64,000 nt of DNA from Vigna angularis. Taxonomy: Eukaryota > Streptophyta > Magnoliopsida > Fabales > Fabaceae. The stretch covers positions 28,760,289 through 28,824,288 of the forward strand of contig NC_068972.1 in the NCBI RefSeq assembly GCF_016808095.1. Direction: 5' to 3'. How positions within the stretch are numbered: the first letter of the stretch is position 1; each line of letters opens with the position of its first letter. The translations under genes and the position numbers were made by a program. Of the stretch, positions 7,035 through 48,671 are shown piece by piece. The notes below the pieces were generated by a model. That model ran no database searches. It saw only the letters and a program-made list of their open reading frames with translations, and had not been told where the DNA came from.

Positions 7035-7143
7035 ACATCTATTGATGGATGTTAGGCGGAACAGTATCTACTGAAGGATACTATGTTTGTATACACCTAC
7101 TGATGGGTGTTGGTAAGAAAGATTTGCATCTACTGAAGGGTGT
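7035..7143 (+). repeat. Array of four short hairpins with a shared loop
   Basis: Stem/loop/stem units: ACATC-TATTGATG-GATGT (7035-7052), AGTATC-TACTGAAG-GATACT (7063-7082), ACACC-TACTGATG-GGTGT (7093-7110) and GCATC-TACTGAAG-GGTGT with two G:U pairs (7126-7143). The loop is nearly constant while both stem sides change together. The array lies between the two GGGAGGCAACCC motifs. Confidence 0.85.
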
Positions 7144-7688: not shown

Positions 7689-8102
7689 GTAAGTCAAGCA
7701 TTTTTCATTCTAGGGTTCTTGAGTTTGAATTGGATTGTTAAAGCATGAATTTTTAGGGGTTTTGATCTTTATGCATGATTTGATGATTTAATTGATGTTT
7801 GAACTGATTAAACTGAATGATTGTGATCTGGAAAACTGAAAAGTGCATGTGGGTGGAGTTAGGATAAGCCAAAAGGAGTTTTTCAAAATTCTGCAGATTT
7901 ACCGGTCAAGGGTAAATTGCCGCCGAGCGGCACTCTGACAGACTTGTGGTTTTTGCTGAGTTGCGTTCTGGATAGCTGCACTGGTGGCGCTGAGGGGTGA
8001 TTTTGACCCTCAGCGGTGGTTTAGCTTCGAAATAAAGGTGTTGTATGTGTTTTACTAATGATTAACAACATGTTTGTGGTTTTGTATCTGTGTTTGATGT
8101 AG
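7689..8102 (+). other. Candidate intron upstream of the accessory ORF
   Basis: A strong donor GTAAGT (7689) follows a CT-rich leader, and an acceptor-like TGTAG ends at 8102, two bases before the ATG at 8105. In A6 the equivalent acceptor is TGATGCAG. Athila-type elements are thought to express the downstream ORF from spliced RNA, so this is plausible but inferred. Confidence 0.4.
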
Positions 8103-8104
8103 GA

Positions 8105-9346
8105 ATGACATCCTCTTCAGGCAAAAGAATGAAGACCATGGCATCCAAAAGAAAAGAAAAGGAACCAGAACAACCCCATTCTAGTATGTTCCTATCTCGC
8201 AAACATGAGAAGCACTTCAAGGTGGTCCAAGATAGGAGACTACTTATGGAGAGAAAGGTTGGAATGATACCTAACTTTGCTCCTCAATTTGGAGAGAAAT
8301 TGTTAGGGAATGATTGGGGGAAGCTAGCCACATACCCTACACCTGCCAATATAGCTGTGGTGAAAGAATTCTACACTAATGCAAGAAAGAATGGTGATTA
8401 TCCAACTTAGAATTACCTAGGCTATGTCAGAGGCCATGCTATTAGGTATGATCCTGATTCCATCAACAACTTCTTGGATACTGTGTGGGCTGGTGAGCAG
8501 TGCCAGTTTGCTCTCTGTATGGAAGAAGGCGCTGATTTTGATGATGTGGAGAGAGTTTTATGTGTACCTAGAGGACATTTTCAGAGGAATAGAACTGGCT
8601 CTGTGGTTAACATTAGGAGAACTGACTTGACTCCTCTTGCAAAGTATTGGATGGCATTTTCTCATGCAAACATTCAACCATGTTCTCATGTGTCAAACAT
8701 CACTCTTAGCAGGGCACTCCTCCTTTACTTTGCAATCAAGAACTTGAATGTCAATATTGGACAGGTAATAGCTGATGAGATAAGGATGTGTGCCAACACA
8801 ACAAACAGCAAAGCACCCTTAGGACATCCTTCTTTGATTACACACCTCTGCAAGATAGCTGGGGTGGATACTTCTGCTCCACCATTTGAAAGGCCAAGGA
8901 AAGCAATTGATGAGGCCTATTACAGACAATACTGTGGAGGTGAGGAGGAGGCTCAGCCAGTTCCACCACGCCGTACTCGCAGAGAAAGAGGGCAAGCACA
9001 AAGTCAGGCATTTGCTGAGACTCATGAAGCAGAACCTTTCCAGATGAGGGACATGTACATGTCTCTTATAGGTGCACAATTACAGTCTATCCACAAAGGG
9101 CAGGTGGCCACTACTGAAATGATTGTTGGAATGTATGATACACCTCCAGCACACAGGTGGACTATGGAGGAGTTTCATAATGTGGTAGCCTGGCCAGAAG
9201 AGCAGGTACAAGGAGGCAGAGCTGAAGTAGCTGAAGCTTCAGCTATGGAGGTGGAAGAAGATGATGTTGATGATGATGAGGATGATGCATTTGAGGATGT
9301 TGAAGATGAGGAAGAAGAGGAGGATACAGATGACAGCTCAGATTGA
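8105..9346 (+). pseudogene. Accessory protein, putative plant transposon protein (PF20167-like), one in-frame stop
   Basis: A frame of 413 codons starts at ATG 8105, preceded by an acceptor-like AG, and is interrupted only by TAG at 8408-8410; the same frame continues to TGA at 9344. Before the stop comes VVKEFYTNA. After it come YVRGHAIRY, LCVPRGHF, RRTDLTPLAKYW and LSRALLLYFAIKNLNVNIG, then SLITHLCKIAGV. This order matches, from memory, the Pfam 'putative plant transposon protein' domain (PF20167) found in plant retroelements. The last 45 residues are almost all Asp/Glu. The ORF occupies the position of the env-like ORF of Athila elements. Function is unknown; there is no signal peptide or membrane segment. 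It could be made by readthrough but is more likely a recent nonsense mutation. Confidence 0.75.
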
Positions 9347-10611
9347 TGAGGAGCTGAGATAACATTTACTGATGAATGCTATCATAACTAAAGCAGGACT
9401 TATGTTTTTGTTTTATGTTCTGAACTTATTTGCTTTTGTTTTTAAAATAGGGTTTGATGTACTCAATTGGAAACTTTGTCTGTTATGATGGTTTGCTTAT
9501 GATTGTTGTTTGATAAGTAATGCCTGATGATGCTTTGATATGGATTGATGTTGAGATGTGCACAGTACATGCTTATACAGGTGGTTCACAAGCTTTGTGA
9601 ACAAATGCAAGTTAATGTGATTGTGATTGTGATATTAAGCAGGTTGCGTATGTCAAATGGGAATGAGCTTATATATGAGGTTTTGAGCTCCAGAGTTTTT
9701 GTGATTGAGTGTTATTACTTTGAAAGCATGAATGACTTTGCCCAGGTTTGCTATGATTGAATTACTTGCTTCTTTGCATTATATGATCAAGGTCATTTGT
9801 TGGTAACCCTTATATTAGCCAAATTGCATGAAATAAGCCACAAACGAGAGAACACTATGTGTTCTATCATTTGAACCCTTAGCCTTGAACATAAATTTAA
9901 AACCCTTGTTGAAAGCTTTACCTTGAGTTAAGTAGAAAATATTTTGTGGTATTGACAAATGTTCAAGTTTGGGGTTGTTGGAAAATAGAAAGGGAATTTG
10001 AAAGCATTGAGCTAAGAGCTAAGACTTAAGTATGTGAAAAGCAAAAGAAAAAGAGAAAGAAAAGAAAAAGCAAAGCTCAATGCAAAGGAAAGTTGGGAAA
10101 AGTAAGAATGATTGTGTTTATATGATTCTCTTAACTCAAGGGTTTTGTGATCTAGAAAAACCAATTTTCTTGTTAGCCCAACCACATTATAAGCCATTGA
10201 AAAAGTCCTTGTGATGATGCATGCTTGTGAATTTATTTGATTGTGGTTAAATGAAAGGCAAAGTCAATTCATGTGACATTGTGATAGTAGAGTGAATGAG
10301 TGATTACCTCTTATACACTTGTGTTTGAGTCAAACACTTTACCTAGTGAGGAAAGATTCCATGAGCACATGAACATCTTTGCTTAGTTGATTGATCATTC
10401 ATGAAAAATAGCATTTGTTGGATATTAAGTGACTTTGTGAACACCAAAGCATGTGCACGTCTTGATTGAAATCTTTATCATGAGTTTAATTGAAGTTTTT
10501 ACTTATATTGAAAAGAGGATTTTTGAATGAGTGAACCATTGTACAAATTGGTAGAAGATTGAATTACATTTTGTTTGCTTGAGGACAAGCAAAGTTCTAA
10601 GTTTGGGGTTG
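9347..10611 (+). other. A1 3' noncoding region with PPT
   Basis: No coding sequence. It holds a PPT-like AAGTTTGGGGTTG at 9965-9977, a perfect hairpin TTTGCTTG/CAAGCAAA with loop AGGA at 10574-10593, and the true PPT AAGTTTGGGGTTG at 10599-10611 next to the 3' LTR. A further copy of the 13-mer lies upstream at 7621-7633. Confidence 0.8.
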
Positions 10612-12370: not shown

Positions 12371-13431
12371 TGAAAATAGCATTTATTGATGAATGTTATT
12401 TGCATTAGAACATGGTGTTTCTTATCTTTGTTTTGTGAACTTTATTTTGCTTCTGTTTTTACAATAGGTGTGATGTACTCAGTTTAAGACCTATATTTGA
12501 TGTGATGGTGATATTAATTTGCATGTGATGAGTATTGCTTGATGATGCTTTGAGATTGATTGATGTTGAGATGTTGCACAGGATGTTTGATATACAGGTG
12601 ATGGTTCACAAACTTGTGAACAGATGCATGATGTTATGATTGTGGTTATCATGTTAAGCAGGTTGTGTTGGGTGTATGTGGAACATGAATTAACTTGTGT
12701 GAGGTTTTGAACTCCAGAGTATTTGTTTGAATGGATGCTATTCTTTTGAAAGCATGAATGATATTGCCCAGGTTTCCATGATTGAACTACTTGCTTACTT
12801 GTGTCATATGATCAAGGCCATTTTTTACTACCCTTTTTCTTAGCCAATGCATGATTTGTACCCAAATGAAAAGGAGCATGAAGTGTTCTACCCTTTTTCA
12901 ACCTCAAGCCTTAAACAGATCCTTTGTGAAAATCTTTATCTTGAGTTAAGTTGAGAATTATGATGTGGTATTGATAAAGGTTCAAGTTTGGGGTTGATTG
13001 GGAGAATTGAAAAGGAAAGTAATGAAAAGCATTGAGCTAAGTGTTGAGCAAGTATGAAAAGAGAAAAGAAAATAAAATGCAAAGAAAGAAAAGCTCAATG
13101 CAAAAGGGGGAAAGTTGGGAATGAGTGAGATTGGTTTATCCAAAGAGAGATTGAACTTGAATGATAAATTTATGAATGACTCTCTTAACTCAAGGATTTT
13201 GTGATCTTGAAAAACCAATTTTCCTTCTTAGCCCAACCACATTACAAACCATGAAAAGTCCTTGGGATAATATTTGTTTGTGAGTGTGATTGATAGTGTG
13301 AAATGAAAGGCAATTTTGTTCTATGTGACATTGGGATAGTAGAGTGAAGGAGTGACCTTTATATACACTTGTGTGATTGAGTGAAACACTTTGTCTGGTA
13401 AGGAAGAGTTCCATGAACACATGATTAAATA
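12371..13431 (+). other. A3 3' noncoding region, first part
   Basis: It parallels 9347-10360 of A1, including a PPT-like AAGTTTGGGGTTG at 12984-12996. No coding sequence. It breaks at 13431, where A4 was inserted, and continues at 28010. Confidence 0.75.
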
Positions 13432-16177: not shown

Positions 16178-17959
16178 CAACCCCAAACTTAAAACTTTGC
16201 TTGTCCTCAAGCAAACAAGATGTAACTCAATCTTCCATCAATCCATATAATGGTTCACCATATTCAAAACTCCCTTTTCAAGATAAGTAAGTACTCAATT
16301 AAGCTCATTGCAAATATTTCAATCAAGACATGCACATGCTTTAGTGTTCACACAATCACATAATATCCAACAAATGCTACTTTTTATGAATGATCAATCA
16401 ACTAAGAAAGATGTTCTTATATGTTCATGGAATCTTTCCTCACTAGATAAAGTGTTTCACTCAAACACACAAGTGTATAAGAGGTATTCACTCATTCACT
16501 CTACTATCACAATGTCACATGAATTGACTTTGCCTTTCATTTAACCATAATCAAATACATTCACAAGCATGCATCATAACAAGGACTTTTCAATGGCTTA
16601 TAATGTGGTTCGGCTAACCAGAAAAATTGGTATTTCTAGATCACAAAACCCTTGAGTTAAGAGAATCATCTAACACAATCATTCTTACTTATTTCCAACT
16701 TTCCTTTGCATTGAGCTTTGCTTTTTCTTCTCTTTTCTTTTTCTTTTTCTTTATCTTTTCACATACTTAGGTCTTAGCTCTTAGCTCAATGCTTTCAATT
16801 TCCCTTTCATAACTCCCAACAACCCTAAACTTGAACATTTATCAATACCATCAGATATTTTCTACTTAACTCAAGGTAAAGCTTTTCACAAGGGGTTTTC
16901 AAGTCATGTTCAAGGCTAAGGGTTCAAAGGATAGAACACATAATGCTCTCTTTTGTGGGCTAAAATCATGCATTTGGCTAATAAAAGGGTTACCAACAAA
17001 TGGCCTTGATCATATGATGCAAACAAGCAATTAATTCAATCATAGAAAACCTGGGCAAAGTCATTCATGCTTTCAAAGTAATAGCATTCAATCACAAAAA
17101 TTCTGGAGCTCAAAACCTCACATATAAGCTCATTCACATTCCACATGTACACATCCTGCTTAGTATCATAATCACAATCATAACATCATTCATTTGTTCA
17201 CAAAGCTTGTGAATCACCTGTATAAGCATATAATGTGCACATCTCAACATCAATCAATATCAAAGCATCATCAAGCATTACTTATCAAACACCAATCATA
17301 AGCAAACCATCATAACAGACAAAGTTTCCAATTGAGTACATCAAACCTTATTCTAAAAACAAAAGTGAATGATAAAGCAAATCCTGCTCTAGTGTTTTGA
17401 AAAACTCAGCCCCAACAATGATGCTCTCTCCCAACCCCAAACTTAGATGGAAAACTAGTGAGAAAGTGAGTGGAAGGGAGATTTTCTTAAAGAAGAATGA
17501 AGGGAAAAATGTAGAGAACCTTTGGAAAATTGTTTAGGAGTGTGTGTGCAGAGAAGAATTTGAAAATAGAGGCCAAAGCGTGACTTAGGGTATAAAAAGA
17601 CCCTAATGGGCTCAGGTTCCGCTAAGGGGCAATCCTAAGCCCAGCCTGCGATACCACCGCTCAGCGGCACTTTCGTGATGTGCTCTTCTTCTTCCTAGCT
17701 TAACCTAGGTGCCTCCTACTCATACCCCTCACTTGCTCCCTGCAATTAAGGTCTCAGATCACTCAAACATTCAATCCCTATCATGCAACTAAAGCAGAAT
17801 CAAAACAAACAATACAGATAAAATCAATCAACTGGGTTGCCTCCCAGGTAGCGCTTGTTTAACGTCACGAGCCTGACCCAAAATCCTCCAGCACCCTTCA
17901 GTAGATGCAAATCTTTCTTACCAACACCAATCAGTAGGTGTATACAAACATAGTATCCC
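16178..17959 (-). mobile_element. A4 internal 3' region, accessory ORF deleted
   Basis: On the minus strand it ends with PPT (16178-16190) and the CTTGAGGACAAG hairpin; further PPT-like copies are at 16820-16832 (one mismatch) and 17432-17444. A CTGGG/CCCAG motif is at 17832-17847, and two loop-sharing hairpins are at 17891-17908 and 17924-17941. The whole accessory ORF is missing: sequence jumps near 17383 from the 3' untranslated region to the leader. At 17960 it abuts B sequence. No ORF of note. Confidence 0.75.
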
Positions 17960-33873: not shown

Positions 33874-34746
33874 CAGGGCCATAATTGTTTCTCTCCAAAA
33901 ATAAAGGAAGAGGATAGAGATAAGGAAGAAAAACTAGTGCACCAAGACTTTGTGCTAGAAACTAATGAACGTAAACCTTCCAAACCAGTGAAACTCAAGA
34001 ACAGGTTATGGGTTACCAAGGCTATCAAAGCAAATGGAGTTCTTGAGATTGAGGCTCCTTATTCTAGGAGAGTCAAGTTGGTGACTAGGAAGATGTTGAG
34101 ATTATGTTGGTGTTATGAAAGAAAGAAGAACGCCAACATTAAAAATCCAAATTGAGCAAAGTGGTGTCAAGCTAATTACGTTAGACAAGCGCTTACTGGG
34201 AGGCAACCTAGTTTTCTAAACCTTTCTTTTTAGCTCATTTAATTGTGCAGCTTTGATTTGATTATGCTTTGAGTGTTTTTGTGCTTTTAGGTTATATGCT
34301 GCTTCTCTCGGAATTCAATGCATTTCACTTGATGAGTTCATCACTCGCATGTCTTGGCCTGGGGACCAGGCCCAAGCTAGTGAAGGAGGTGCACGTCCGG
34401 AGGCGAGGCTATGGCAGAGGATGATGAGGATGATTTGGAGGAAGAGTCAGATGCCTCTGATGGGAGTGATGATAGCATCTCCTGATGCTGCTAGATCAGG
34501 ATTTTCTTATGTTTTTGTTAGTTTTATGCATGCTTGAATTCTTTTTATTTTGCTTTTAATTTTAGTTTGAGTTATGTACTTGGTTAAATGGATAGTTGCT
34601 ACAATTCTTTAGCGTGAAGTGATAAATTGTTTGATTGTGAGAAGTAAGATTATCTTGTGTTTGCCTTATTGACTTGTGATTCATGTTGAGATAAAGATTG
34701 GTTTAGCTTTTAAGCACAAATGGTGGTTGCTCATAGTTGTTTAAGA
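33874..34746 (+). mobile_element. Internal fragment of a divergent Athila-like element (A12)
   Basis: It holds a short Lys/Arg-rich frame of unknown identity (33937-34155), the ACGTTAGACAAGCGC plus CTGGG/CCTAG hairpin motif (34175-34211) and an accessory-ORF tail. It then resembles A 3' noncoding sequence up to 34746, where chromovirus pol sequence starts abruptly. It probably continues at 56476. Confidence 0.6.
34323..34485 (+). pseudogene. Accessory ORF tail of A12, frameshifted
   Basis: FITRMSWPGDQAQA resembles the FHNVVAWPEEQVQ part of the A1 accessory protein. A +1 shift near 34403 then opens an acidic Asp/Glu/Ser tail ending at TGA 34483. Similar order and spacing to A1 support homology. 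Confidence 0.5.
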
Positions 34747-35045: not shown

Positions 35046-35282
35046 CTAATAGTAATTTTTAGCATTTTATTAGTAATAATAATTTTAATGGATAGAAAAA
35101 TGTAAATTTTTGGATATAAAATTATAGTAATTCTAGAGGGAGAGCTTCAAAATTTTGATAACTTATTTAGGATTTTTTTAGAAAAGTGAATAGTGAATAG
35201 TAAATAGTAAATAGTAAATAGTGAATAGTGAATAGTGAATGGTTAAAAAAAAATATTAAAATAAATTGTGGAAGAGAACACT
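34981..35282 (+). repeat. Chromovirus 5' LTR, first part
   Basis: Begins TGTAAGACCC followed by a (TA)n microsatellite (about 34997-35042) and AAATAGT-type repeats near 35185-35245. It ends in ACACT, the A6 target duplication. Confidence 0.9.
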
Positions 35283-36725
35283 TGATGGACAAATTTGTAA
35301 GCACCAAAATATGATGTCACAAACTTGTTTCACAATCGGCAAGTATGACCGAATCGTTCAAGTAATAAACTTGGTAAGACCAAGTATCGTTCTTCCCAAA
35401 GGACTCACGGCCTAGTTTAGTTGTGTGGTTTGTTGATTAGCTAAGACTTACAAATGAAATAATTGGATTATATTATGCAAGACGAAAACTAAACATGTAT
35501 GCATGAATTGATCAATGGCAAAGACTAAAGATAAACACTTTCAATGGATTATATGAATGAATATGTTGTTGGGGGTCAATTTCATCTCATCCACTCTCAT
35601 ACATTTTAGGAATTCAACATTCAAATCATCATTGTTAATGCCACTCTCTAAAGTACCATTCTAGATGGCTTCTCCCTAATCAAATAGTTCATACAATTCC
35701 TAGCATTCCTAATGATTAGTTCATGAGTGCAGGAGCTTAACGACAACCAATATAATATTGTCAGTATAATATTGGGAGAAATTCCCCGGATCTAGACTTC
35801 CCCGTACGTGTCCGTATCGACAAAACCAATAATCATGCAATAGAATGAGTTAAACAATGCAAGCATTAAGCAAAGAGGAAAAACCCTAACTAATGATGAA
35901 AGAAAGCATAAGTCTTAGATTAAGATGCAAGCATAAATTCCATATATGAGAGCTTCAAGAGATTACATTGATTCCCCAACAAACATACAAGGTTTAGTTC
36001 ACCATATTCATGGTGAACCTAGATGAACAATAATGAAAGAATGAAAGAATAAACCCAATAAAGGTGAAGAGGTAGCCTGAGCATCCAAGATCCTCCTTCA
36101 AAGGGGTGGAAGAGAGAGTGTTTGCTTCGTTTCTGCCAAAGATGTCTAACCCTAGGACGTGCAAGTCCTTAAATAGGGCATAAAAATAACATAAAACAAG
36201 TCCAAGCCCATAAAAACAAAAGAAAACCGGTCAGAGCCCACTTAGAATGGCGCTCAGCGGTATTTTACCGCTGAGCGGTACTAGCGGTTGATCCATTTTG
36301 CCCCCCAACTGCTGTTTTGCCCCTCAGCGGTGATTTCGGCACCCGAAAAGTGCCGCTCAGCGGTATTTTCCGCTCAGCGCCACTCGGTCACACGTTTTCT
36401 GCGTTCTGGGTGGTTTTTCAGCATTCTGGTTGACTGGTTGACTTTTCTGGTTGACTGGTTGACTTTTCTGGTTGACTGGTTGACTTTTCTGGTTTCTGGT
36501 TGACTTTTCAGCACTCCAATCATTCGGTATTTCAATTTTTCTTTCAAATCATTCAATTAGCCTACAAAATCAAGGGAATCTTGCACAAAACCATTAAATT
36601 CACTTTCAACTCTCTTATTCTCAAAACTAAAGAAAAAATATGAATTCAAGCTAGTTTCTAAGTCTTAAAGGTTGCTTTTGGTATCAAATTTAAGCATAAA
36701 AATAACAGTTTTTCAACTGTTATCA
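35283..36725 (-). repeat. A6 3' LTR (1443 bp)
   Basis: TGATGGAC to TATCA on the plus strand. GGTTGAC minisatellite at 36426-36507, GCTGAGCGG motifs at 36250-36385, TATTTAA complement near 36170. The 3' half is subtype III and the 5' half subtype II. Confidence 0.95.
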
Positions 36726-37993
36726 CAACCCCAAACTTAGAGCTTTGCTTGTCCTCAAGCAAACAAGATGTAACTCAATCTCTAACCAATTCGTATGATG
36801 GTTCACTCATTCAAAAATCCTCTTTTTCAAGATAAGTAACAACTTCACTCAAATTTATGACCAAGAGTTCAATCAAGATGTGCACATGCTTTAGTGTTCA
36901 CAAAGTCATTTAAATTCCAACAAATGCTATTTTTCATGAATGATCAATCAATTAAGCATGGATGTTCATGTGCTCATGGAATATTTCCTCACCAGGTAAA
37001 GTGTTTCACTCACACACAAGTGTATAAGAGGTAATCACTCATTCACTCTACTATCACAATGTCACATGAATCAACTTTGCCTTTCGTTTTACCACAATCA
37101 AAAACATTCACAAGCATGCATCATCACAAGGACTTTTCAATGGCTTATAATGTGGCTGGGCTAACAAGAAAATTGGTTTTTCTGGATCACAAAATCCTTG
37201 AGTTAAGAGAATCATAACAACACAATTATTCTTATTTTTCCCAACTTGCCTTTGCATTTGCATTGAGCTTCGCTTTTTCTTTTCTTTTCTTTTCTTTTCT
37301 CTTTGCATATTCTTACTTTTTAGCTCTTAGCTCAATGCTTTTCATGTTTTCCCAACAACCCCAAACTTGAACATTTACCAATACCACACAAGATCTTCTA
37401 CTTAACTCAAGGTAAAGATTTTTCAATCAAAGGTTTCAGTGTATGTTCAAGGCTAAGGGTTCAAAGGATAGAACACAACGTGTTCTCTTTTGGTAGGCTA
37501 ACTTTATGAATTTGGCCAATAAAAAAGGTTCCAACAAATGGCCTTGATCACATGATGCAAAACAAGCAATTGATTCAATCATAGAAAACCTGGGCAAAAT
37601 CATTCATGCTTTCAAAGTAGTAGCATTCAATTATACCAAAAACTCTGGAGCTCAAAACCTCACATATAAGCTCATTCACATTTGACATACACATCCTGCT
37701 TAATCTCACAACCACAATCATAATTTCATGCATTTGTTCACAAAGCTTGTGAATCACCTGTATAAGCATTTTAATGTGCACATCTATCTCAACATCAATC
37801 AATCACTAAGCATCATCAAGTAGTACTTATCACACAATCACAGTTAATAGCAAACCATCATAACAAACCAGGTGTTCAATAGAGTACATCAAACCCTAAT
37901 CTAAAAACAAAAACAAATGAGTTCAGAAAACTTAAACCACAAAAGCATAATCATTTGATAGCATTCATCAGTAAATGCTATCTCAGCTCCTCA
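36726..37993 (-). other. A6 3' noncoding region with PPT and hairpin
   Basis: PPT (complement of AAGTTTGGGGTTG) at 36726-36738, perfect TTTGCTTG/CAAGCAAA hairpin at 36744-36763, and a second PPT copy at 37356-37368. No coding sequence. Confidence 0.85.
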
Positions 37994-38071: not shown

Positions 38072-38550
38072 CCCTGCATCAAACATAATTCACAAAACCA
38101 AAAGATACATTGTTAAGCATTAGTAAACCACAATGAAGAAATCAGCCCCTTCAATGATGCTCTCTCCCAACCCCAAACTTAGATGGAAAACTAGTGAGCA
38201 AGTGAGTGGAAGAGATTTTTTTCTTAAGAGGTAAGAGTGAAAAGATGTGGAAAACCTAGGAGAAGATGTGTGGAAGTGTTTGTGCAGAGAGAAGCCAGAA
38301 AATAAACCCTAAAACGCAGCTTGGGGTATAACAATACCCTAATGGGCTCGGGTCCCGCTAAGGGGAACTTAAGCCCATCTGCGATAGTACCGCTCAGCGG
38401 TAATTGCCGCTCAGCGGCACTTTCGTGAAGTGCTCCTCTCCTTCTTTTCTTGACCTACGTGCCTTCCCTACATGTCCCTCATAGGTTCCCTGCAATTCAA
38501 TGTTAAAAATGCTTATGCAAAAACTAAAAATAAACAAACAAACAATCAAC

Positions 38551-38566
38551 TGGGTTGCCTCCCAGG
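38551..38566 (-). other. Second GGGAGGCAACCC hairpin of A6
   Basis: A perfect CTGGG/CCCAG stem with loop AGGCAA on the element strand, preceded by GACGTTAAACAAGCGC. A further PPT-like 13-mer lies downstream at 38168-38180. Confidence 0.75.
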
Positions 38567-38607
38567 TAGCGCTTGTTTAACGTCACGAGCCTGACCCAAA
38601 ATCCACC

Positions 38608-38747
38608 AACACCCATCAGTAGGTGTTTCAAACTTACCAGCACCCATCAGTAGGTGCAAAATTTCTTACCAACACCCATCAGTAGGTGTTACAACATAGT
38701 ATCCCTCAGTAGATACTTAACCACCTAGCATCCTTCAGTAGATGCTA
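38608..38747 (-). repeat. Five-hairpin array of A6
   Basis: Units on the plus strand: 38608-38627 (AACACC/GGTGTT), 38640-38657 (GCACC/GGTGC), 38671-38690 (AACACC/GGTGTT), 38698-38717 (AGTATC/GATACT), 38726-38747 (TAGCATC/GATGCTA). On the element strand the loops are TACTGATG, TACTGAGG or TACTGAAG. Every stem is perfectly paired although four stem sequences are used. Confidence 0.9.
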
Positions 38748-38827
38748 TCTCCAACAAACTAGTTACAAAATAAAATCCACAACTTAAAAATTACAAAACC
38801 AAAATAAAATCAAAAGTTCTTAAATCA

Positions 38828-38843
38828 CTGGGTTGCCTCCCAG
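38828..38843 (-). other. First GGGAGGCAACCC hairpin of A6
   Basis: Perfect CTGGG/CCCAG stem directly downstream of the gag-like ORF, preceded by GACGTTAAAAGAGCGCTTG. Confidence 0.75.
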
Positions 38844-38863
38844 CAAGCGCTCTTTTAACGTCA

Positions 38864-39685
38864 TTAGCTTGACCCAAACTCGAGTTCCTTCTTTTTTTTC
38901 TTCTTTCTACTGAACTTCTTCAGAAATTTGATCAAACCAGGAACCTGTTGTAGTGTCTCAATCATAGGAACTTTAATCTCCAATTTCTTGAAGATTTCCA
39001 TAAAGCACTTGAACTTCTTTTCCTTCCTATGATGCTTCTTTAGATGAGGATGTGATTTTTCATATGATTTCTTCTTCTTTCCTCTCATCTTCTTTTTCTT
39101 CCTTTTTCTCTCCCTCAATTTTCTCTTTTTCTTTTCTTTTATTTTTTTCTTCCCTTTTCTTTTTCTTTTCAACTTCTTTATTTTCACACAAATCTTCTTT
39201 CTCTCTTCTCTCTCAACCACTTCGTTCTCTTTTTCTTCATCTTTATTTTTCTCACTCAACTCTTCTTTCTCTTTTCTCTCTATCTTTCCCGCATCTCCCT
39301 CTATTCTTTTCTCATCAAGAATCTTGTCACTTTCAGTGACATTGGTTTGCCCTTCCTCCTTAAGGTTAACTTCAGTATTAACCTCATCATCCAATCTCTG
39401 ATTAATGTAACGAAAGTGCATCTCCATCCTTTTACATGATTCTTCAATGCTTTTCTGAGTAGAGTCGGAATTTTTCAAAAATCGTTGAAGGGTGTCCTCC
39501 AACCTATCCAAACTTCCTGATAAAAAGGGTTGTTGCTGCCATTGTTGTTGTGGTTGGTTCTCAAATTGTCCGGCAGCTTGCCAAAATTGGCTTTGATCCA
39601 TGCTTGAGTGAGGTTCCCACCATTGGTTGAGATTACTTTGGTAGAATTGAGTGCCCATATAGTTAAATTCTTGACCAAATTGCAT
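38864..39685 (-). CDS. Intact gag-like protein of A6 (273 aa, Lys/Glu-rich)
   Basis: From ATG at 39685 (the first in-frame ATG) to the stop at 38864. Order: a short N-terminus with FNYMGTQFYQSN, a Gln/Trp-rich linker, one LEDTLQRFLKNSDS unit, YINQRLDDEVNTEVNLKEEG, a Glu/Lys-rich helical stretch, a strongly basic stretch of about 60 residues, then CFMEIFKKLEIKVP and GLIKFLKKFSRKKKKKK. The last parts match the Athila gag C-terminal pattern. No capsid core, zinc knuckle or protease. It may be an RNA-binding protein or just a remnant kept open by chance; the frame being free of stops in the youngest copy favours some use. It is the only intact element ORF above 250 codons in family A here. Confidence 0.7.
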   Translation of the reverse strand: MQFGQEFNYMGTQFYQSNLNQWWEPHSSMDQSQFWQAAGQFENQPQQQWQQQPFLSGSLDRLEDTLQRFLKNSDSTQKSIEESCKRMEMHFRYINQRLDDEVNTEVNLKEEGQTNVTESDKILDEKRIEGDAGKIERKEKEELSEKNKDEEKENEVVEREERKKICVKIKKLKRKRKGKKKIKEKKKRKLRERKRKKKKMRGKKKKSYEKSHPHLKKHHRKEKKFKCFMEIFKKLEIKVPMIETLQQVPGLIKFLKKFSRKKKKKKELEFGSS

Positions 39686-39719
39686 TCTGCAGACATTAGG
39701 CACAAAACTCTAGGAAATA

Positions 39720-40100
39720 TTTGTTAGCACAAAAGATATAGAAGAAGATATATATTCAGAAGATAAAAAGATTTAAAAGATAGAATCAAATAAAACCTAA
39801 TCTAAAAAAATAGAATAAAATAAAATCTAACCTAATCTAAAAGATAAAATAAAATAAAATAAAATAAAATCTAACCTAATCAAATAAAATAAAATAAGAT
39901 CTAACCTAATCTAAAAGATAAAATAAAATAAAATAAAATAAAATCTAACCTAATCTAAAAAATAAAATAAAATAAAATCTAACCTAATCAAATAAAATAA
40001 AATAATATAAAATAAAATAAAATAAAAACAAAAAAAAATAAAAACAGAAATTCAAAAAGTCAAAGATAATCAATAATCACACAAATTAACCAGTTAAACC
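39720..40100 (-). repeat. A6 leader with AAAAT pentanucleotide runs
   Basis: Many tandem (AAAAT)n blocks are separated by CTAACCTAATC words. No coding sequence. The equivalent A1 leader (5700-5900) has shorter TTTTA runs. Confidence 0.8.
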
Positions 40101-40123: not shown

Positions 40124-41015
40124 AAAACTTGATGGACAAATTTGTAAGCACCAAAATATGATGTCACAAACTTGTTTCACAATCGGCAAGTATGACCGAA
40201 TCGTTCAAGTAATAAACTTGGTAAGACCAAGTATCGTTCTTCCCAAAGGACTCACGGCCTAGTTTAGTTGTGTGGTTTGTTGATTAGCTAAGACTTACAA
40301 ATGAAATAATTGGATTATATTATGCAAGACGAAAACTAAACATGTATGCATGAATTGATCAATGGCAAAGACTAAAGATAAACACTTTCAATGGATTATA
40401 TGAATGAATATGTTGTTGGGGGTCAATTTCATCTCATCCACTCTCGTACATTTTAGGAATTCAACATTCAAATCATCATTGTTAATGCCACTCTCTAAAG
40501 TATCATTCTAGATGGCTTCTCCCTAATCAAATAGTTCATACAATTCCTAGCATTCCTAATGATTAGTTCATGAGTGCAGGAGCTTAACGACAACCAATAT
40601 AATATTGTCAGTATAATATTGGGAGAAATTCCCCGGATCTAGACTTCCCCGTACGTGTCCGTATCGACAAAACCAATAATCATGCAATAGAATGAGTTAA
40701 ACAATGCAAGCATTAAGCAAAGAGGAAAAACCCTAACTAATGATGAAAGAAAGCATAAGTCTTAGATTAAGATGCAAGCATAAATTCCATATATGAGAGC
40801 TTCAAGAGATTACATTGATTCCCCAACAAACATACAAGGTTTAGTTCACCATATTCATGGTGAACCTAGATGAACAATAATGAAAGAATGAAAGAATAAA
40901 CCCAATAAAGGTGAAGAGGTAGCCTGAGCATCCAAGATCCTCCTTCAAAGGGGTGGAAGAGAGAGTGTTTGCTTCGTTTCTGCCAAAGATGTCTAACCCT
41001 AGGACGTGCAAGTCC

Positions 41016-41022
41016 TTAAATA
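41016..41022 (-). promoter_or_regulatory. Candidate TATA box of A6 5' LTR
   Basis: TATTTAA on the element strand, about 550 nt into the LTR and just upstream of the conserved GGACTTGCACGTCCTAGGG segment. The corresponding TATATAA in A1 (11017) and A10 (about 32525) lies at the same relative place. Inferred from position and sequence only. Confidence 0.5.
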
Positions 41023-41272
41023 GGGCATAAAAATAACATAAAACAAGTCCAAGCCCATAAAAACAAAAGAAAACCGGTCAGAGCCCACTTAGAATGGCGC
41101 TCAGCGGTATTTTACCGCTGAGCGGTACTAGCGGTTGATCCATTTTGCCCCCCAACTGCTGTTTTGCCCCTCAGCGGTGATTTCGGCACCCGAAAAGTGC
41201 CGCTCAGCGGTATTTTCCGCTCAGCGCCACTCGGTCACACGTTTTCTGCGTTCTGGTTGGTTTTTCAGCATT

Positions 41273-41352
41273 CTGGTTGACTGGTTGACTTTTCTGGTTG
41301 ACTGGTTGACTTTTCTGGTTGACTGGTTGACTTTTCTGGTTTCTGGTTGACT
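41273..41352 (-). promoter_or_regulatory. GGTTGAC (W-box-like) minisatellite in A6 5' LTR
   Basis: Seven TTGAC words occur in about 80 bp, in tandem CTGGTTGACTGGTTGACTTTT-type units. TTGAC(C/T) is the core site of WRKY transcription factors. The array lies upstream of the candidate TATA box on the element strand. Equivalent arrays are in A4, A9 and the A6 3' LTR; A1, A5, A7 and A10 have none. Confidence 0.55.
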
Positions 41353-41577
41353 TTTCAGCACTCCAATCATTCGGTATTTCAATTCTTCTTTCAAATCATT
41401 CAATTAGCCTACAAAATCAAGGGAATCTTGCACAAAACCATTAAATTCACTTTCAACTCTCTTATTCTCAAAACTAAAGAAAAAATATGAATTCAAGCTA
41501 GTTTCTAAGTCTTAAAGGTTGCTTTTGGTATCAAATTTAAGCATAAAAATAACAGTTTTTCAACTGTTATCAACACT

Positions 41578-44121
41578 CCACGTAGAATTAATCATTCAGA
41601 GATAAGAATGGTGAATAAAAAATAATTTTTGAATAGTAAAAATGAATAGTAAAAGTGAATAGTAGAAATGAATAGTAAAAATGAATAGTAAAATTTTTGG
41701 CTATAAATAGCCAAGGGGGGGAGGCTGAAGATTTACACCAAAATTCTAGAGAAATTGTGAGAGAAGAGAGTTGGAGGAAATTCTAGTTGAAGAGGGGAAA
41801 TTCTGGAAGTTTCCGGAGAACGGTTTGAGAAGAGGAAACTAAGTGTGGAATAGAGGTAAGGGGAGCTAACTTTGAGTAATTCCTTTTATATTATCTTGAG
41901 TCTTGAATATGCTATATTTTGCTTTTGTTTGATCTTAAATCTTGAATATGGAATATTTTGTTTATGTATGATCTTGAATTTAAATGAGAGTATGCTTTTG
42001 TGTTGATATCCGAGTGTGATAGTTGTAAATTGTGATGTTGAATATGTTATGCCATTTGTATGTTATTAGTTGTTTATTTTTGTAATTTGGAAGGATTAGA
42101 AATTGTCTAACCGGCTCTGCCAGATTCAATTTCTTGTTTCCCCAAACATTTTATTGTTTTCCTTATTTATTTTTATTGTAGTATGGAAGGATTAGAAATT
42201 GTCTAACCGGCTCTGCCAGATTCAATTTCTTGATTCCCCAAATTTTTTTATTTCTTTCCTTACTTATTTTATTACATTTTTGGAAGGATTAGAAGTTGTC
42301 TAACCGGCTCTGCCAGATTCAACTTCTTGTTTCCCCAAACTATTTATTGCTTTACTTATTTATTTTATTGCAATTTTTGGAAGGATTAGAAGTTGTCTAA
42401 CCGGCTCTGCCAGATTCAACTTCTTATTTCCCCAGACATGTATTGTTCTTGTTATTTAATTATATTGTATTGTTGGATGGATTAGAAGTTGTCTAACCGG
42501 CTCTGCCAGATTCAACTTCTTGTTTCCCCATAAAATTTTATATTAAGATTATTTTTATGATTGTCAAATATTGTATTCTTCTATGACCATTTATAGTAAT
42601 ATTTTATTATTGTTAATTATTTATAATTATCTTGTATGAATTCTATTATGGATGTTTATTGTGATGAATTTATTGAATGAGTTTGTTGGCTGAAATTGAT
42701 CTTGTTGGAAGGTTTGGAGAAAGGGTTCTGTAATAACTTGTATATGGGTATTAAATATACAGATACTGTTTGAGGTTGTTGTGAGAGGAAGTAAAATATT
42801 AAAATTAGGTATTTTAGATTTAGAGCATAAGAGAACAAGGTAGATAAATTAAATAAATAAATTGTAAATTATTAAGGGCCTCCCTTTGTTGGTAGGATAG
42901 AGGAACCTTAAAAACCTGAGTTGGCACATCCCTGATCATAGAGCAGCCCTGGCCTGGTCCAGTCAGTTGTGACTAGTCATATGTGCTGGCGTCGAAGGTG
43001 AGTTTGATGCGTTCAGACATCTGGGTCCTCTCCGGTGACCAATTGGGGTAAAGAAAGATCTCTAATAGGATGAAAATAAAATAAAATAAGTCAATTGTAG
43101 ATGCATAACGTTATCATGGTAAAAAACTTCATATATATTTTATTTGTTATTACATTGAGCCCAGACTTTATTATGTAGTTCCTAAGATATGTTGATATAT
43201 TTTTGTCGATCCATAATCTTGTTTGGTGAAAATATGTTGAGTTATACTCGTTATGGGCAAAATGAGTTTATAATATGAAGCATGATATTTGGCAATATGT
43301 TTAATTTATTGATACCAAAACGGGTTATTATGAATTCATGATTAAAGAATGAACATGATTGAGTTAAGTGGATAAGAGGGTATGAATTGTTGGTTTTATG
43401 AAATGTTGGGGCGGATATGAGAAATTCATTACTTATGAAATGATGGTACTACCGGGAGTAGTATGATCGAGTTATACCATGAGAGTTTGGTATGAACAAA
43501 GTAACATTGAGGTTTATAGAAGCAGGCAGAGAGGGGTCTGACCATAAGGCTTCAGAAAGTAAGACATAGTATATAAGTGAGGCTTAAGGAAGCAGGCAGA
43601 GAGCGGTCTGACCATAAGGCTTCATGAGTAAGCATGGTACACTTGTAAGATTTATGGGAATGAGGAATATGATTTTGAAAATGATGAATTAATGACATCG
43701 GAATAATGATATTTTATCAATTGCAAAAAAAAAAATACATGATTATAATATTTTTATTACAAGTTTAATGATTTTATGATATGGTTGGCTTACCCTTATT
43801 TGTTTGTACTATGATCATATAACTCATGTTATATGTGATTAGATAACGTTGCAGATGCGGTTGAAAAAGCTTAGAGATGAGAGAGATGCGGGGAAAAACT
43901 TTCAGGAATTTTTGTAAAAAGAATAAATTTGTATTGGGAAGATTATGTTGTGTAAAACTTATAAGTTGAAATTTCAATGGTGAAGACTATATTGTTTAAA
44001 GTTTGTATGTTTGGTATTGTACTTTGGAGTAATTGAAATAAAGTTTGATTGTTTATATGAGATATTAAATTAATTTAGTCTCTACTATCAGTAATACCCT
44101 TTAAAATATTTGGGTGTTACA
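41578..44121 (+). repeat. Chromovirus 5' LTR, second part
   Basis: Continues after the A6 TSD and ends in GTGTTACA. No ORF. Contains the five-unit tandem hairpin repeat and, at about 43519-43625, two copies of a GAAGC...GCTTC unit around GGTCTGACCATAA. Confidence 0.9.
42088..42530 (+). repeat. Five tandem about 97-bp units with covarying hairpins
   Basis: The hairpin cores at 42098, 42194, 42291, 42388 and 42484 each read AGAARTTG, a constant 21-nt middle including CTAACCGGCTCTGCCAGA, then CAAYTTCT. Units 1-2 use A with T, units 3-5 use G with C, always concordant. The 3' LTR has three units (49425, 49522, 49618). Confidence 0.9.
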
Positions 44122-44124
44122 TTA

Positions 44125-44136
44125 TGGTATCAGAGC
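44125..44136 (+). other. Primer-binding site (initiator tRNA-Met) of the chromovirus
   Basis: TGGTATCAGAGC, 3 nt after the LTR end, is the standard plant Ty3/gypsy and copia primer site. Confidence 0.95.
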
Positions 44137-44294
44137 AATGGTTTTCGAAAGTATTTTGGGACTATGGGGAGTGAAATTATTATTCTTAGTAAAACTATTA
44201 ATTGTGAGGATGAAAATGACTATTGGAGGAAATTGATATCATATGCTAAATTGTATTGTTATCTTTTTGAAGAAATCATTTAAACTCGACAAAG

Positions 44295-47200
44295 ATGCAG
44301 CAACAACAAGTTGATCAAGTACCTCAAAATCATTCTAGCTTGAATGACTTCTTAAGGCATGATCCAACTAAATTTAATGGGGAGGCTACTCCTGATGAGG
44401 CTGACTCTTGGCTAAGGCAGAACAAGAAGATTTTTCGGGTAATAACTTGCTCAGAAGAACAAAAATTAACTTATGCATCATTTCTTTTGGTGGGTGAGGC
44501 TGAATATTGGTGGGAAAGTATGCAACAGTTGATGACGGTTCGTGGTGAGGCTGTGAATTGGGAGAACTTTAAGATAAGGTTCTTGGAAAAATATTTTCCA
44601 AACAGTGCAAAATTTGCAAGGGAGGCGGAGTTTCTGACCTTACAACAAAGAAGGTTATCAGTACAAGAGTACGTAGTAAAATTTAATTATCTCTCGAGGT
44701 TTTATACTCAGAATATCACAGAAGAATGGAGATGTCGAAAATTCGAGGGAGGACTAAGGCATGAACTGAAGAAGGTACTTATGCCATTGGAAATACAAGA
44801 GTTTCCAGCATTGGTAGAGAAAGCCAGAATGATAGAATTGTTGGAGTTCGATCCAAGTAGAGTTTCCAGACTTGCAAAGGGAGAATCTTCAATGAAATTC
44901 AACAAAAAACCTTATGAAAAACCACAATTATCATATCGAGGAACAATGAAGTGTTTTGAGTGTGGAGGGGCACATTTCAGACGTGACTGCCCTAAACTTA
45001 TTGGGGAAAGAGTTGAAGGGAAGAGATGTTTCATCTGCAATGATCCGGGACACTTTGCTAATGTCTGTCCAAAGAAAAAGAAAGTGGGTGAACCACAACA
45101 ACAAGATTCTGCTGAAGTAAAGCCCCGGGCAACAGGAAGAGTATTTGCAATGTCTATAGAAGAGGCTACTAAGCCAGGTACATTAATCTTACATACCTGT
45201 ATGTTGTTAGGAGAATCCGTATATGTTTTGTTTGACTCTGGAGCCACACACTCCTTTATATCCCTAGCATGTTTAGAAAGACTCGGATTATCGATGCATG
45301 ATCTAGGGTGTGAATTAGTAGTTTCTACACCAGCATCGGGACCTATTGCGACCAGTTCAGTCTGTGTCGGATGCCCGATCCAAATTGCAGGACGCAAGTT
45401 CAAAGTGAACTTGATCTGCTTACCCCTTCAAAATCTAGACATTATTTTGGGAATGGATTGGTTGACTGCCAATCACGTTCTTATTGACTGCGGGAAACAA
45501 AAGATAGAGTTTCTAAATTTGAACGATTTAGAACTAAGCTCAACTCGAGTCGTTGCGAAAGATATCAAGGATGGAGCTACCTGCTATGTGGTGTTAGCTC
45601 AGGAGAAAAGAGGAAATACTGAAGAACAAATCATCGGAATACCTGTGGTAGAAGAATATGTTGATGTTTTTCCAGAAGAAGTACCAGGTTTACCACCTAG
45701 TCGAGAGATCGATTTCACAATAGATCTAGTGCCCGGAGCTGGCCCGGTTTCTATGGCTCCATACAGAATGGCTCCTGCTGAACTAGCAGAGTTGAAAAAG
45801 CAAATCGAAGATCTGTTGGAGAAGAAGTTTATCCGTCCAAGTGTGTCTCCATGGGGAGCTCCTGTATTGCTGGTGAAGAAGAAGGATGGAAGTTCAAGGT
45901 TGTGCGTGGATTATCGACAGTTGAACAAGGTTACAATAAAGAACAAATATCCTTTGCCAAGAATCGATGATCTATTAGATCAGTTGAGGGGAGCAGAGGT
46001 GTTTTCGAAAATTGATCTCAGATCTGGGTACCATCAGATTCTTGTCAAGACGGAAGATGTACAAAAGACGGCTTTCAGATCTCGCTACGGACACTTTGAG
46101 TACGTAGTAATGCCGTTTGGCGTGACGAATGCTCCAGCGATTTTTATGGACTACATGAACAGGATATTTCGGTCATGTTTAGATAAGTTCGTGGTAGTAT
46201 TTATAGACGATATTCTTATCTATTCAGAGAATAAGGAAAAGCATGCAGAACACTTGAGGATGGCGTTGGAAATTTTGAGAAAACATCAACTGTATGGGAA
46301 ATTGTCAAAGTGTGAGTTCTGGATAGAGAAAGTAAAATTTTTGGGTCATGTGATTTCTGCTCAAGGAATCTCAGTGGATCCAGCTAAAGTGGAAGCTGTG
46401 CTAAAGTGGGAGCGGCCGAAAACAGTAACTGAAGTACGAAGTTTTGTAGGATTAGCCGGTTATTACCGACGTTTCGTCAAAGGGTTTTCCAAGATTGTAG
46501 GCCCTCTAACTCAGTTAACTCGTAAAGATCAACCATTCCTGTGGACTGACAAGTGCGAAGCCAGTTTTGAAGATATGAAGCAACGGCTAACGTCAGCACC
46601 AGTATTAATCATTCCAGACTCCAACAAATCTTTTGAGGTGTACTGTGATGCGTCATATCAAGGTTTGGGGTGCGTCCTAATGCAAGGAAGGAGACCTGTA
46701 GCTTATGCATCTAGGCAGCTAAAGGCGCATGAGAAGAACTACCCAACGCATGACATAGAACTTGCAGCAGTAGTATTTGCATTAAAGACATGGAGACACT
46801 ACCTCTATGGGGCAAGTTTCCAAGTTTTTAGTGACCATAAGAGTCTAAAGTATTTGTTCGATCAAAAGGAGCTGAACATGCGACAAAGAAGATGGATGGA
46901 ATATATGAAGGACTATGACTTCGAGCTTTTATATCACCCAGGAAAAGCCAATGTGGTGGCAGATGCATTGAGTAGGAGACAAGCTCAGATAACAACACTG
47001 ATGGTGAAGGAATTAGAACTGTTAGAAAAGTTACGTGATATGAACTTGGGGTTGCAGTTAACCCGAGATCATATATGGTTTGGTCATTTAGTAATCACTA
47101 GTGACTTCTTAGAACAAGTGAAGGTTGAGCAGTCAATGGATCAAGAGTTGCAGCAAAGGATCAGGTTGTTGGACACCGATCAAGCCAGGGAGTTCGTTCT

Positions 47201-48533
47201 AAGTAAAGATGGCATTCTTCGATTTAAGAACAGAGTGTGTATACCTGCAAAGAGTGAATTGAAACATTTAATTTTGGATGAAGGCCATAAAAGTCGTCTT
47301 AGCATACATCCAGGTATGACTAAGATGTATAAGGACCTGAAAGAGTCATTTTGGTGGAATGGAATGAAGAGGGATGTGGCCGAGTTTGTAGCAGCCTGCT
47401 TGGTGTGTCAAAAGGCAAAAGTGGAGCATCAAAAACCGGGAGGGATGTTACGACAGTTAGACATTCCTCAATAGAAGTGGGATAGTATCTCGATGGACTT
47501 TGTAACACATTTACCAAAATCATCAAAAGGTCACGATTCTATCTGGGTTATCGTTGATAGACTAACCAAGAGCGCTCACTTTTTGCCCATTAATCAATGT
47601 ATGTCACTAGAAAAGCTGACGGAGTTATACATCGGGGAAGTAGTGAGGTTGCATGGCATACCTACAAGCATTGTGTCAGACAGAGATCCAAGGTTTACTT
47701 CAAGGTTTTGGCAGACGCTACAGAAGGCTCTGGGAACACAGTTGAGGATGAGTTCGGCTTATCACCCTCAGACTGATGGTCAAACAGAAAGAACTATTCA
47801 GTCTTTGGAGGATTTGCTAAGAACTTGTGTATTAGACCATCTTGGAAGTTGGAATGAGATACTACCATTAGTAGAATTTACTTACAACAACAGTTATCAT
47901 TCCAGTATTGGTATGCCACCCTATGAAGCTTTATATGGAAGAAGATGTAGGACCCCGTTGTGTTGGTTTCAAGATGGGGAAGCACTGACAGTGGGACCCG
48001 AGCTATTACAGCGAACCACAGAAAAAATAAAATTAATCCAAGATCGGATGAAAGCAACTCAAAGTAGACAAAAGTCATATGCCGACAAAAGAAGAAGACC
48101 GTTAGAATTTGAAGAAGGAGATCACGTATTCTTACGAGTAACACCAACTACAGGAGTCGGGAGAGCTATCAAGATGAGGAAGCTGACACCAAAATTTCTC
48201 GGACCGTATCAAATTCTCAAAAAGATTGGGCCAGTGGCTTATGAGATAGCATTACCACCTCGATTGGCAAAATTGCATAACGTTTTTCATGTATCCCAAC
48301 TGAGGAAGTATATTCCAGATCCAAAGCATGTGTTAGAAGTTGATGAAATCCAGGTCAAGGAAAATTTAACAATGGACGTTGGACCAGTGCGTATACTAGA
48401 TGTTCAAATGAAAAAGCTAAGAGGAAAGGATATTCGCACGGTAAAGGTACTTTGGAATGAAGACACAGAGGAAATGACTTGGGAATTGGAAGAATTTATG
48501 ATAAAGGAATATCCATATCTCTTTTGTAAGTAG
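44295..48533 (+). pseudogene. Chromovirus gag-pol polyprotein, one in-frame stop
   Basis: A single frame of about 1412 codons from ATG 44295, closed only by TAG at 47472-47474. Gag is about residues 1-290 with two CCHC knuckles ([13 protein letters not shown] near 220, [14 protein letters not shown] near 245). Protease has DSGATHSF near 314. RT runs about 490-665 with the catalytic FIDDILIYS near 636. RNase H has YCDASYQG near 783 and ADALSRR near 890. The integrase zinc domain (HPGM...CLVCQ) lies near 1005-1040. The stop falls at codon 1060, just before the integrase core, whose D (47552), D (47680) and E (about 47790) are all present. The tail [15 protein letters not shown]...WELEEFM is chromodomain-like, which guides integration to heterochromatin. 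The stop is probably a TGG-to-TAG change, since Trp is usual there. Confidence 0.92.
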
Positions 48534-48602
48534 TCTTTTGTTAAAAAGTCTTTTATTAAATAGATAATTTTCGAGGGCGAAAATAATTGTTGTTGGGGAG
48601 AA

Positions 48603-48617
48603 TGTAAGACCCATAAA

Positions 48618-48671
<54 letters not shown>

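Follow-up and report, generated by a model that had tools for sequence, protein, structure and literature searches.

Introduction

The packaging signals of retroviruses are usually found in the 5' leader, and some, such as that of murine leukaemia virus, are made up of several stem-loops; small RNA phages carry dispersed coat-protein hairpins. The BARE elements of barley are Ty1/copia retrotransposons. To our knowledge, little has been established about the cis signals that let plant Ty3/gypsy elements select their own RNA and pol-less elements exploit a helper. In the BARE2/BARE1 pair, Gag-less elements share packaging and dimerization signals with their helper, according to the passages of PMC3735527 that treat these signals. 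Ogre/Tat elements have hypervariable tandem repeats in their 3'UTRs (Macas et al. 2009, as cited in PMC7004042).

Here we analyse a tandem array of hairpins with a near-constant loop in an LTR element, A6, and in its relatives A1 and A4, all within one window (the whole 64,000-nucleotide stretch under study, contig C3, 28.760-28.824 Mb, of the 448-Mb genome in which we counted copies). As in BARE, pol-less elements (A1 and A6) share LTR, leader and array sequence with pol-bearing ones; unlike in BARE, for which the passages of PMC3735527 mention no tandem constant-loop array, packaging is here a proposed role. Like the Ogre/Tat repeats as summarised in PMC7004042, the array is short, lies 3' of the coding part and changes in copy number. 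The monomers described there vary in sequence and length, whereas here loop and stem are conserved and the spacers vary, so that the monomer does not vary freely. The array resembles retroviral multi-stem-loop packaging signals in its succession of hairpins with similar loops, read at the RNA level, and differs from them in lying 3' of pol rather than in the 5' leader and in having a putative function where theirs rests on tested binding. As with the phage coat-protein hairpins, one RNA bears many copies of a constant loop whose stems vary, although the elements are unrelated and the binding protein is here only putative.

The initial annotation, made from the letters of the window, knew of no description of such an array, and we found none in the open-access literature searched (mostly listings), nor any open-access paper containing the core of the module that flanks it. 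The text of the Diaspora paper (PMC1142308) has none of the terms hairpin, stem-loop, palindrom- and tandem repeat. A 13-mer, CTACTGATGGGTG, occurs in a cucumber ammonium paper (by title) and was judged unrelated.

Five hairpins in A6 and their counterparts in A1 and A4

The units in the window are as follows.

38726..38747, minus strand: A6 unit 1, TAGCATC-TACTGAAG-GATGCTA, 7 bp
38698..38717, minus strand: A6 unit 2, AGTATC-TACTGAGG-GATACT, 6 bp
38671..38690, minus strand: A6 unit 3, AACACC-TACTGATG-GGTGTT, 6 bp
38640..38657, minus strand: A6 unit 4, GCACC-TACTGATG-GGTGC, 5 bp
38608..38627, minus strand: A6 unit 5, AACACC-TACTGATG-GGTGTT, 6 bp
7035..7052, plus strand: A1 unit 1, ACATC-TATTGATG-GATGT
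7063..7082, plus strand: A1 unit 2, AGTATC-TACTGAAG-GATACT
7093..7110, plus strand: A1 unit 3, ACACC-TACTGATG-GGTGT
7126..7143, plus strand: A1 unit 4, GCATC-TACTGAAG-GGTGT, two G.U pairs
17891..17908, minus strand: A4 unit 4, GCATC-TACTGAAG-GGTGC, one G.U pair
17924..17941, minus strand: A4 unit 3, ACACC-TACTGATT-GGTGT

The five A6 hairpins at 38608-38747 (minus strand) agree in letters and coordinates with the initial annotation. Their stems are all perfect (7, 6, 6 with one further G.U, 5 and 6 bp), around 8-nt loops at 38733-38740, 38704-38711, 38677-38684, 38645-38652 and 38614-38621 on the minus strand. The loop, headed as a constant TACTGAWG in that annotation and described there as nearly the same throughout, is near-constant, one A6 loop being TACTGAGG. 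A1 adds ACATC/GATGT and the G.U-tolerant GCATC/GGTGT, and the two further units of A4 lie at 17891-17941, in both cases with the letters and positions previously reported. A4 is a broken copy whose array breaks off at about 17958. The A1 and A4 units are orthologous to those of A6, and A6 and A1 differ at pair 5 of unit 1 by G-C against A-T. A GGTAAG resembling a 5' splice site follows unit 3 at 38665-38670 (minus) and 7112-7117 (plus).

TACTGAWG occurs 15 times in the window against 4.67 +- 2.05 expected, a count reached in 0 of 100 shuffles. We scanned for clusters of at least three hairpins with 8-nt loops within 200 bp, the loops alike to within one mismatch and the stems having at least five Watson-Crick pairs. 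The window yielded only A6, A1 (7098, counted on the opposite strand) and two TA runs, and 20 shuffles within 2-kb blocks, scanned on one strand, yielded none. The 156-nt array folds with a z-score of -3.7 in the sense and -4.9 in the antisense direction. In the folding model, a T at loop position 7 allows an A2-U7 pair that closes a CUGA tetraloop; an A or G there gives a hexaloop. The choice of A or T at this position mostly tracks the stem.

Array copies across the genome

The unit core CACCTACTGATGGGTG has 2,144 exact copies in the 448-Mb genome and its reversed control has 0; TATCTACTGAAGGATA has 1,012 and the doubly changed unit CACTTACTGATGAGTG has 41. We collected 134 array entries representing 133 places, one place (C1:964 kb) having been entered twice, as L003 and L011. 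Arrays up to L120 all lie on contig C1, the first among the matches listed, and 37 later arrays, on ten contigs, were found through CACTTACTGATGAGTG, which was then excluded from stem counts. Left out before counting were L001, L002, L004-L010, overlapping loci among L012-L040, L076 and L080, and the three-unit alignment also omits A4, L014, L021, L054, L075, L084 and L103. Places bearing the flanking module were sampled, with some single-module places and one module pair (C1:31.05 Mb) left out. For stem counts, 563 units from the 134 entries were kept and 96 pattern-found units dropped. No module match was found on viral contigs, two of which carried a solitary unit each, with no array.

The number of units recognised per locus ranged from 2 to 12, some loci being clipped by the fetched stretch. 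Neighbouring units lie mostly 26-36 nt apart, not in multiples of three, and an open frame crosses only 3 of 115 arrays; a coding repeat was rejected on these grounds. One subfamily (L093, L095, L109, L121, L126-L128, L132, L139, L157) looks older: its arrays are larger, reaching 12 units, they contain a repeat of three units about 90 bp long, and the closing pair is T-A. Hairpins extend past module 2 in L109 and L139.

Loops and stems vary less than spacers

Across 90 aligned arrays, diversity was 0.045 in the loop, 0.049 in the stem and 0.270 in the spacer, the loop and 5-bp stem being about five times less diverse than the spacers. The 36 arrays that were chosen via modules or given in the window gave 0.042, 0.039 and 0.198, respectively. 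We also counted changes on an element tree of 81 arrays, built without loop and stem columns. Internal branches carried 0.12 changes per column in the loop, 0.30 in the stem and 2.54 in the spacer, and terminal branches 1.04, 0.63 and 2.85; units 2 and 3 of this alignment were partly pattern-chosen, which lowers their counts, and unit 1 was not. The contrast is thus strongest in lineages that replicated.

Stems remain paired as their letters change

Pairs 1 to 5 are formed in 97.5, 97.7, 98.4, 97.0 and 92.5% of the 563 units, and pair 6 in 54%. The letters themselves swap: pair 2 is T-A in 307 units and C-G in 219, pair 4 is C-G in 414 and T-A in 118, and pair 5 is G-C in 246 and A-T in 201. 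Over 270 distinct units, pairing was 0.937, against 0.721 +- 0.081 under a null of independent changes that preserves the tree and the number of changes per column (0 of 500 simulations reached the observed value), on a unit tree that is weak, having been built from 28 letters. With the arms slid by 1, 2 or 3 positions, pairing fell within its own nulls (109, 152 and 21 of 200 simulations reached the observed value), the slide by 3 lying near the top of its null.

The initial annotation had proposed R-scape covariation as the check and its absence beyond phylogeny as a refutation, which applies in part. A pairwise, R-scape-like analogue with a phylogenetic null, run on 162 distinct units from the first 97 entries with pattern-found units included, gave no pair with E < 0.05, its two best pairs being stem pairs (E 0.72 and 3.0); at the level of the whole helix the pairing test was significant. 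The claim that the array looks like a selected structure is supported by the roughly fivefold lower diversity, by pairing above the tree null and by a bias towards G.U, and not by pairwise covariation.

Eighteen stems are common to at least three entries, and 85 of their 90 pairs are standard. Four of the five exceptions fall at pair 5, where A.C occurs in ACATC/GATGC (18 entries) and ACACC/GGTGC (4); one shared stem, GTATC/AATAC (3 entries), has a broken pair 1. Most private single-step changes in the stem disrupt pairing, 22 giving a mismatch and 8 a G.U; a further 35 fall in the loop. The ratio of G.U to mismatch is 8:5 among shared and 8:22 among private changes (p = 0.043).

The kinds of stem change and the strand

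Internal branches of the unit tree carried 13 changes from Watson-Crick to G.U, 8 from G.U to Watson-Crick, 6 from Watson-Crick to A.C, 5 to other states, 1 double and a few of lesser kinds. From Watson-Crick, terminal branches showed 18 changes to G.U, 17 to A.C and 28 to other states. Internal and terminal branches differ when G.U is set against other outcomes (p = 0.044) and not significantly when it is set against A.C alone (p = 0.26). Stems with G.U persist as lineages of 15, 21 and 23 entries. Both partners changed on 2 branches of this tree, against a null mean of 3.06. On the element tree (units 1-3), three internal doubles ran from Watson-Crick to Watson-Crick (two at pair 5 of unit 1 and one at pair 1 of unit 3), the other internal stem changes were two to mismatch, one from mismatch to Watson-Crick and one from mismatch to G.U, and no internal step led from Watson-Crick to G.U.

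The sharpest evidence on stem change is a census of closing pairs, which counts exact matches anywhere in the genome, whether or not they lie in an array. The closing pair of the CAC-GTG array unit is C-G in 2,144 copies, T-A in 41, T.G in 68 and C.A in 10, and that of a further, 3' hairpin with the same loop (described below) is C-G in 57, T.G in 32, C.A in 5 and T-A in at least 100. The 32 T.G against 5 C.A of the 3' hairpin would have p = 7e-6 if copies were independent, which overstates the case since copies share ancestry. Because T.G is a wobble pair only in the sense RNA, its excess over C.A points to sense-strand RNA. Methylation preference differs by cytosine context, and deamination that follows such context (CTA against CCA) may account for some of the T.G excess and so also inflate that p-value. 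At pair 3 of the 563 units, G.U outnumbers A.C by 19 to 2, counts that are free of this context bias, though here too copies share ancestry. Overall, the pattern of stem changes, as read from these sequences, fits selection on the sense-strand RNA.

Elements that carry the array

A6 is a minus-strand LTR element with the order 5' LTR, primer-binding-like site, ORF, module 1, five hairpins, module 2.

40124..41580, minus strand: A6 5' LTR, followed by a TGGCGCCGTTGCCGGGGA primer-binding-like site
38864..39709, minus strand: A6 ORF, 281 aa, Lys/Glu-rich, no Pfam domain found
35277..36733, minus strand: A6 3' LTR, 99.5% identical to the 5' LTR by self-BLAST

The ORF is probably what remains of a gag C-terminal region, a kinship seen partly by eye and partly in a 73% DNA match to the 3' part of the gag frame of a pol-bearing relative. 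The A6 leader at 39730-40073 is a tandem repeat of TTAGATTAGGTTAGATTTTATTTTA-like units. A1, a plus-strand relative, has its four-unit array at 7035-7143 and an extra ORF at 8411-9346 with a PF20167 domain, which carries only the name 'putative plant transposon protein'. The LTR pairs of A1 are 96.2% identical and those of one pol-bearing relative 98.5%.

The initial annotation took these elements to lack pol, correctly for the window copies; elsewhere in the genome, two pol-bearing elements with related LTRs, L158 and L160, carry the array directly 3' of integrase. In stop-to-stop readings of their frames, L158 matched PF03732, PF13650, PF00078, PF17919/PF17917, PF17921 and PF00665 in this order (gag-PR-RT-RNase H-IN), and L160 matched the same profiles in the same order with the protease profile not reported. 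The LTR pairs and this domain order place the carriers among the Ty3/gypsy LTR retrotransposons, perhaps Athila-like ones; the TGGCGCCGTTGCCGGGGA primer-binding-like sequence is one that we take to be of the Athila/Tat type. Since the array occurs in both pol-bearing and pol-less elements, a cis signal shared by helper and parasite becomes more plausible. No zinc knuckle was found in the gag frames of the two pol-bearing elements, so the reader of the loop, if it is Gag, would be other than the usual domain; the gag frame of the first has a basic tail.

Sorted by what lies 5' of the array, 56 entries (55 distinct places) follow a Lys-rich gag remnant (class K), 34 a gag-PR-like tail (class T) and 2 an integrase (class P); 42 of the 134 are unclassified, their upstream sequence being too short or different. 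Class T was read over about 250-300 bases upstream in most entries. Two module-bearing loci, L005 and L006, appear to resemble the non-autonomous TR-GAG elements in having a gag-PR frame, and class T ends in a similar tail (by eye); classes K and P differ in the coding content that accompanies the array.

An identical array is found in one class K entry and six class T entries, and 21 cross-class pairs of arrays differ by at most three letters (17 K/T, 3 K/P, 1 P/T). Such near-identity across coding classes indicates that array and coding block have recombined. The LTR and leader of the class P elements match those of A1 at 83-88%. In a comparison of A1 with one of them, identity was 95.3% for the module-array-module block, 85.7% for the LTR and leader and 87.5-88.4% for the 3' parts; the higher identity of the block can reflect selection or recent exchange.

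A1 and the pol-bearing elements have three regions in common: the LTR with the leader, the block of modules and array, and the 3' part. In A6 the same regions are shared, together with the 73% gag 3' stretch, and class T was compared over the array neighbourhood only. By sequence comparison, the set common to A1, A6 and the pol-bearing elements is close to the set of cis signals expected. The A1 block at about 7648-9424 has no match in either pol-bearing element.

Hairpins beyond the array

The same elements contain further hairpins with the same loop, which the initial annotation had not listed, and two copies of a module flank the A6 array.

38823..38881, minus strand: module 1, GACGTTAAA..GCGCT..CTGGGAGGCAACCCAG, a small hairpin, at the ORF end
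38544..38603, minus strand: module 2, the second copy, 3' of the array
37957..37982, minus strand: A6 3' hairpin with the same loop, GATAGCATT-TACTGATG-AATGCTATC, 9 bp
9358..9383, plus strand: A1 3' hairpin, orthologue of 37957-37982, one A.C mismatch, just past the PF20167 ORF
12374..12401, plus strand: 3' hairpin of a third copy, ninth pair A-T (G-C in A6), fifth pair G.U

Inside the ORF, a GGTTAA/TTAACC hairpin carries the same loop at 39370 (minus), 6391 (plus) and 2703 (minus). We scanned both strands of the 17 array entries (16 places) of about 3 kb or more. One or more extra sense-strand hairpins with this loop were present in 12 of them, and the only antisense matches were the arrays of the convergent neighbours L029 and L030. 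These two array-bearing copies converge about 1.2 kb apart at C1:31.152-31.154 Mb, and their listed units differ by one letter. In L019, L024 and L037, another same-loop hairpin lies about 530-1,240 bases upstream of unit 1; it is GGGGCTAA/TTAACCCC-like with one mismatch (GGGCTAA in L037).

The module core has 2,516 exact copies in the genome and its control 0. The module hairpin CTGGG-AGGCAA-CCCAG occurs in the window at 6930-6943, 7188-7201, 17833-17846, 34197-34210 (one mismatch), 38551-38564 and 38829-38842. No array-type hairpins were found within 3 kb of six module-bearing loci (L005-L010), and these relatives thus seemingly manage without the array; in L005 and L006, the module directly follows the end of the gag-PR frame.

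A TTCAGTA at the ORF end, at 38908-38914 (minus) in A6 and 6854-6860 (plus) in A1, could pair with seven letters of the TACTGAA loop. We rejected loop-loop kissing: the loop is not self-complementary (by eye), and a single TTCAGTA per ORF is about what chance would give by our estimate.

A possible packaging signal

With its constant loop, its interchangeable stems and its several copies, the array has the form of a protein-binding RNA site. We tentatively read the array as a cis-acting RNA signal on the sense transcript of this Ty3/gypsy group, most likely for packaging, a reading to which we give somewhat less than an even chance. Each unit of about 30 nt would form a short hairpin presenting a fixed U-ACUGAW-G loop; the loop would be the part that is read, and the stem would only hold it, its letters free to drift as long as they pair, G.U included. 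Pol-bearing elements and at least one, probably two, kinds of pol-less derivative would have kept the signal because all need replication by the same machinery, and it would mark their RNA for capture into particles through weak binding sites in a row, together with the outlying single hairpins. We infer that a protein binds the loop, that this protein belongs to the particle (Gag or another), and that binding leads to packaging. Packaging by Gag would be the most economical function, with control of splicing or translation and aid to strand transfer as further possibilities. Several conserved stem-loops on the genomic RNA strand are what a packaging signal would have; against this type stands the position of the array, which follows integrase or the first ORF instead of lying in the 5' leader, and against a sense-RNA reading the antisense strand, which by z-score folds at least as well.

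A more specific version is conceivable and on balance doubtful: array and outlying loops would together make up a multi-site assembly code, which the particle protein of a pol-bearing helper would read cooperatively. The signal would then be common to parasites that keep little beyond LTRs, leader, array and 3' end, and would amount to a repeated-site packaging signal in a plant LTR retrotransposon, like the dispersed hairpins of small RNA viruses. In either form, the array offers a compact candidate cis signal with thousands of natural variants in one genome and a clear sequence rule: the loop stays constant and the stem stays paired, with G.U permitted. The array is shared by pol-bearing and pol-less classes, array-less module loci are available as controls, and the question of who packages whom becomes directly testable with synthetic hairpins and particle RNA.

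The hairpins might instead regulate splicing, export or translation 3' of pol, for example of the PF20167 ORF of A1, where the array does lie between the first ORF and this one. We consider this unlikely: A6 keeps the array without the PF20167 block, the pol-bearing elements have no match there, and the 5' splice site-like GGTRAG (GGTAAG or GGTGAG), present in 78 of the 134 arrays, is missing from the other 56. Sites acting at the DNA level, with the inverted repeats bound by a dimeric DNA-binding protein or extruded as cruciforms, would suit palindromic tandem repeats. Stem letters that change with pairing kept argue against such sites, as does the bias of T.G over C.A, which is meaningless in duplex DNA, where the two are strand-equivalent; we hold this explanation to be very improbable.

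The initial annotation had also allowed that the stems of a neutral tandem repeat might be kept paired by palindrome correction through template switching. Tandem repeats are known in the 3'UTRs of plant retrotransposons, as the relevant part of PMC7004042 has it, unit gain and loss occurs here, and doubly changed stems exist, among them the three internal doubles that fall on single branches of the element tree, a count that has no null. The lack of an internal step from Watson-Crick to G.U on that tree is likewise expected under correction. On the unit tree, by contrast, double-change branches, which correction predicts, are not in excess of their null and steps from Watson-Crick to G.U and back are common; stems with G.U persist as lineages, and correction predicts no constant loop between free spacers. 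Correction is thus disfavoured, and we regard a neutral repeat maintained in this way as improbable. As a strand-transfer aid, the hairpins would make reverse transcriptase stall and favour its switching from one co-packaged RNA template to another, and the varying number of units and the exchange of blocks between coding classes, seen in near-identical arrays, would be the trace of that switching. The passage of PMC7004042 on plant 3'UTR repeats ascribes them to abnormal strand transfers between co-packaged copies. A loop whose letters are as constant as those of the stems is left unexplained by such an aid, which seems to us quite improbable.

Other features of the window

The CUGAUG within the loop raised a hammerhead or retrozyme as a candidate, which was rejected, since Rfam gave no hammerhead match in A6 (up to E = 5) or in A1 (up to E = 1). 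In the coding part of A1, 6101-6172 (minus) gave a sub-threshold match to Rfam snoU83D (33.5 bits, gathering threshold 55, E 0.0023) that is probably due to chance. At 41716-51159, near-identical long repeats surround two adjoining frames (44271-47474 and 47475-48533), which by eye look like the gag-pol of another Ty3/gypsy element.
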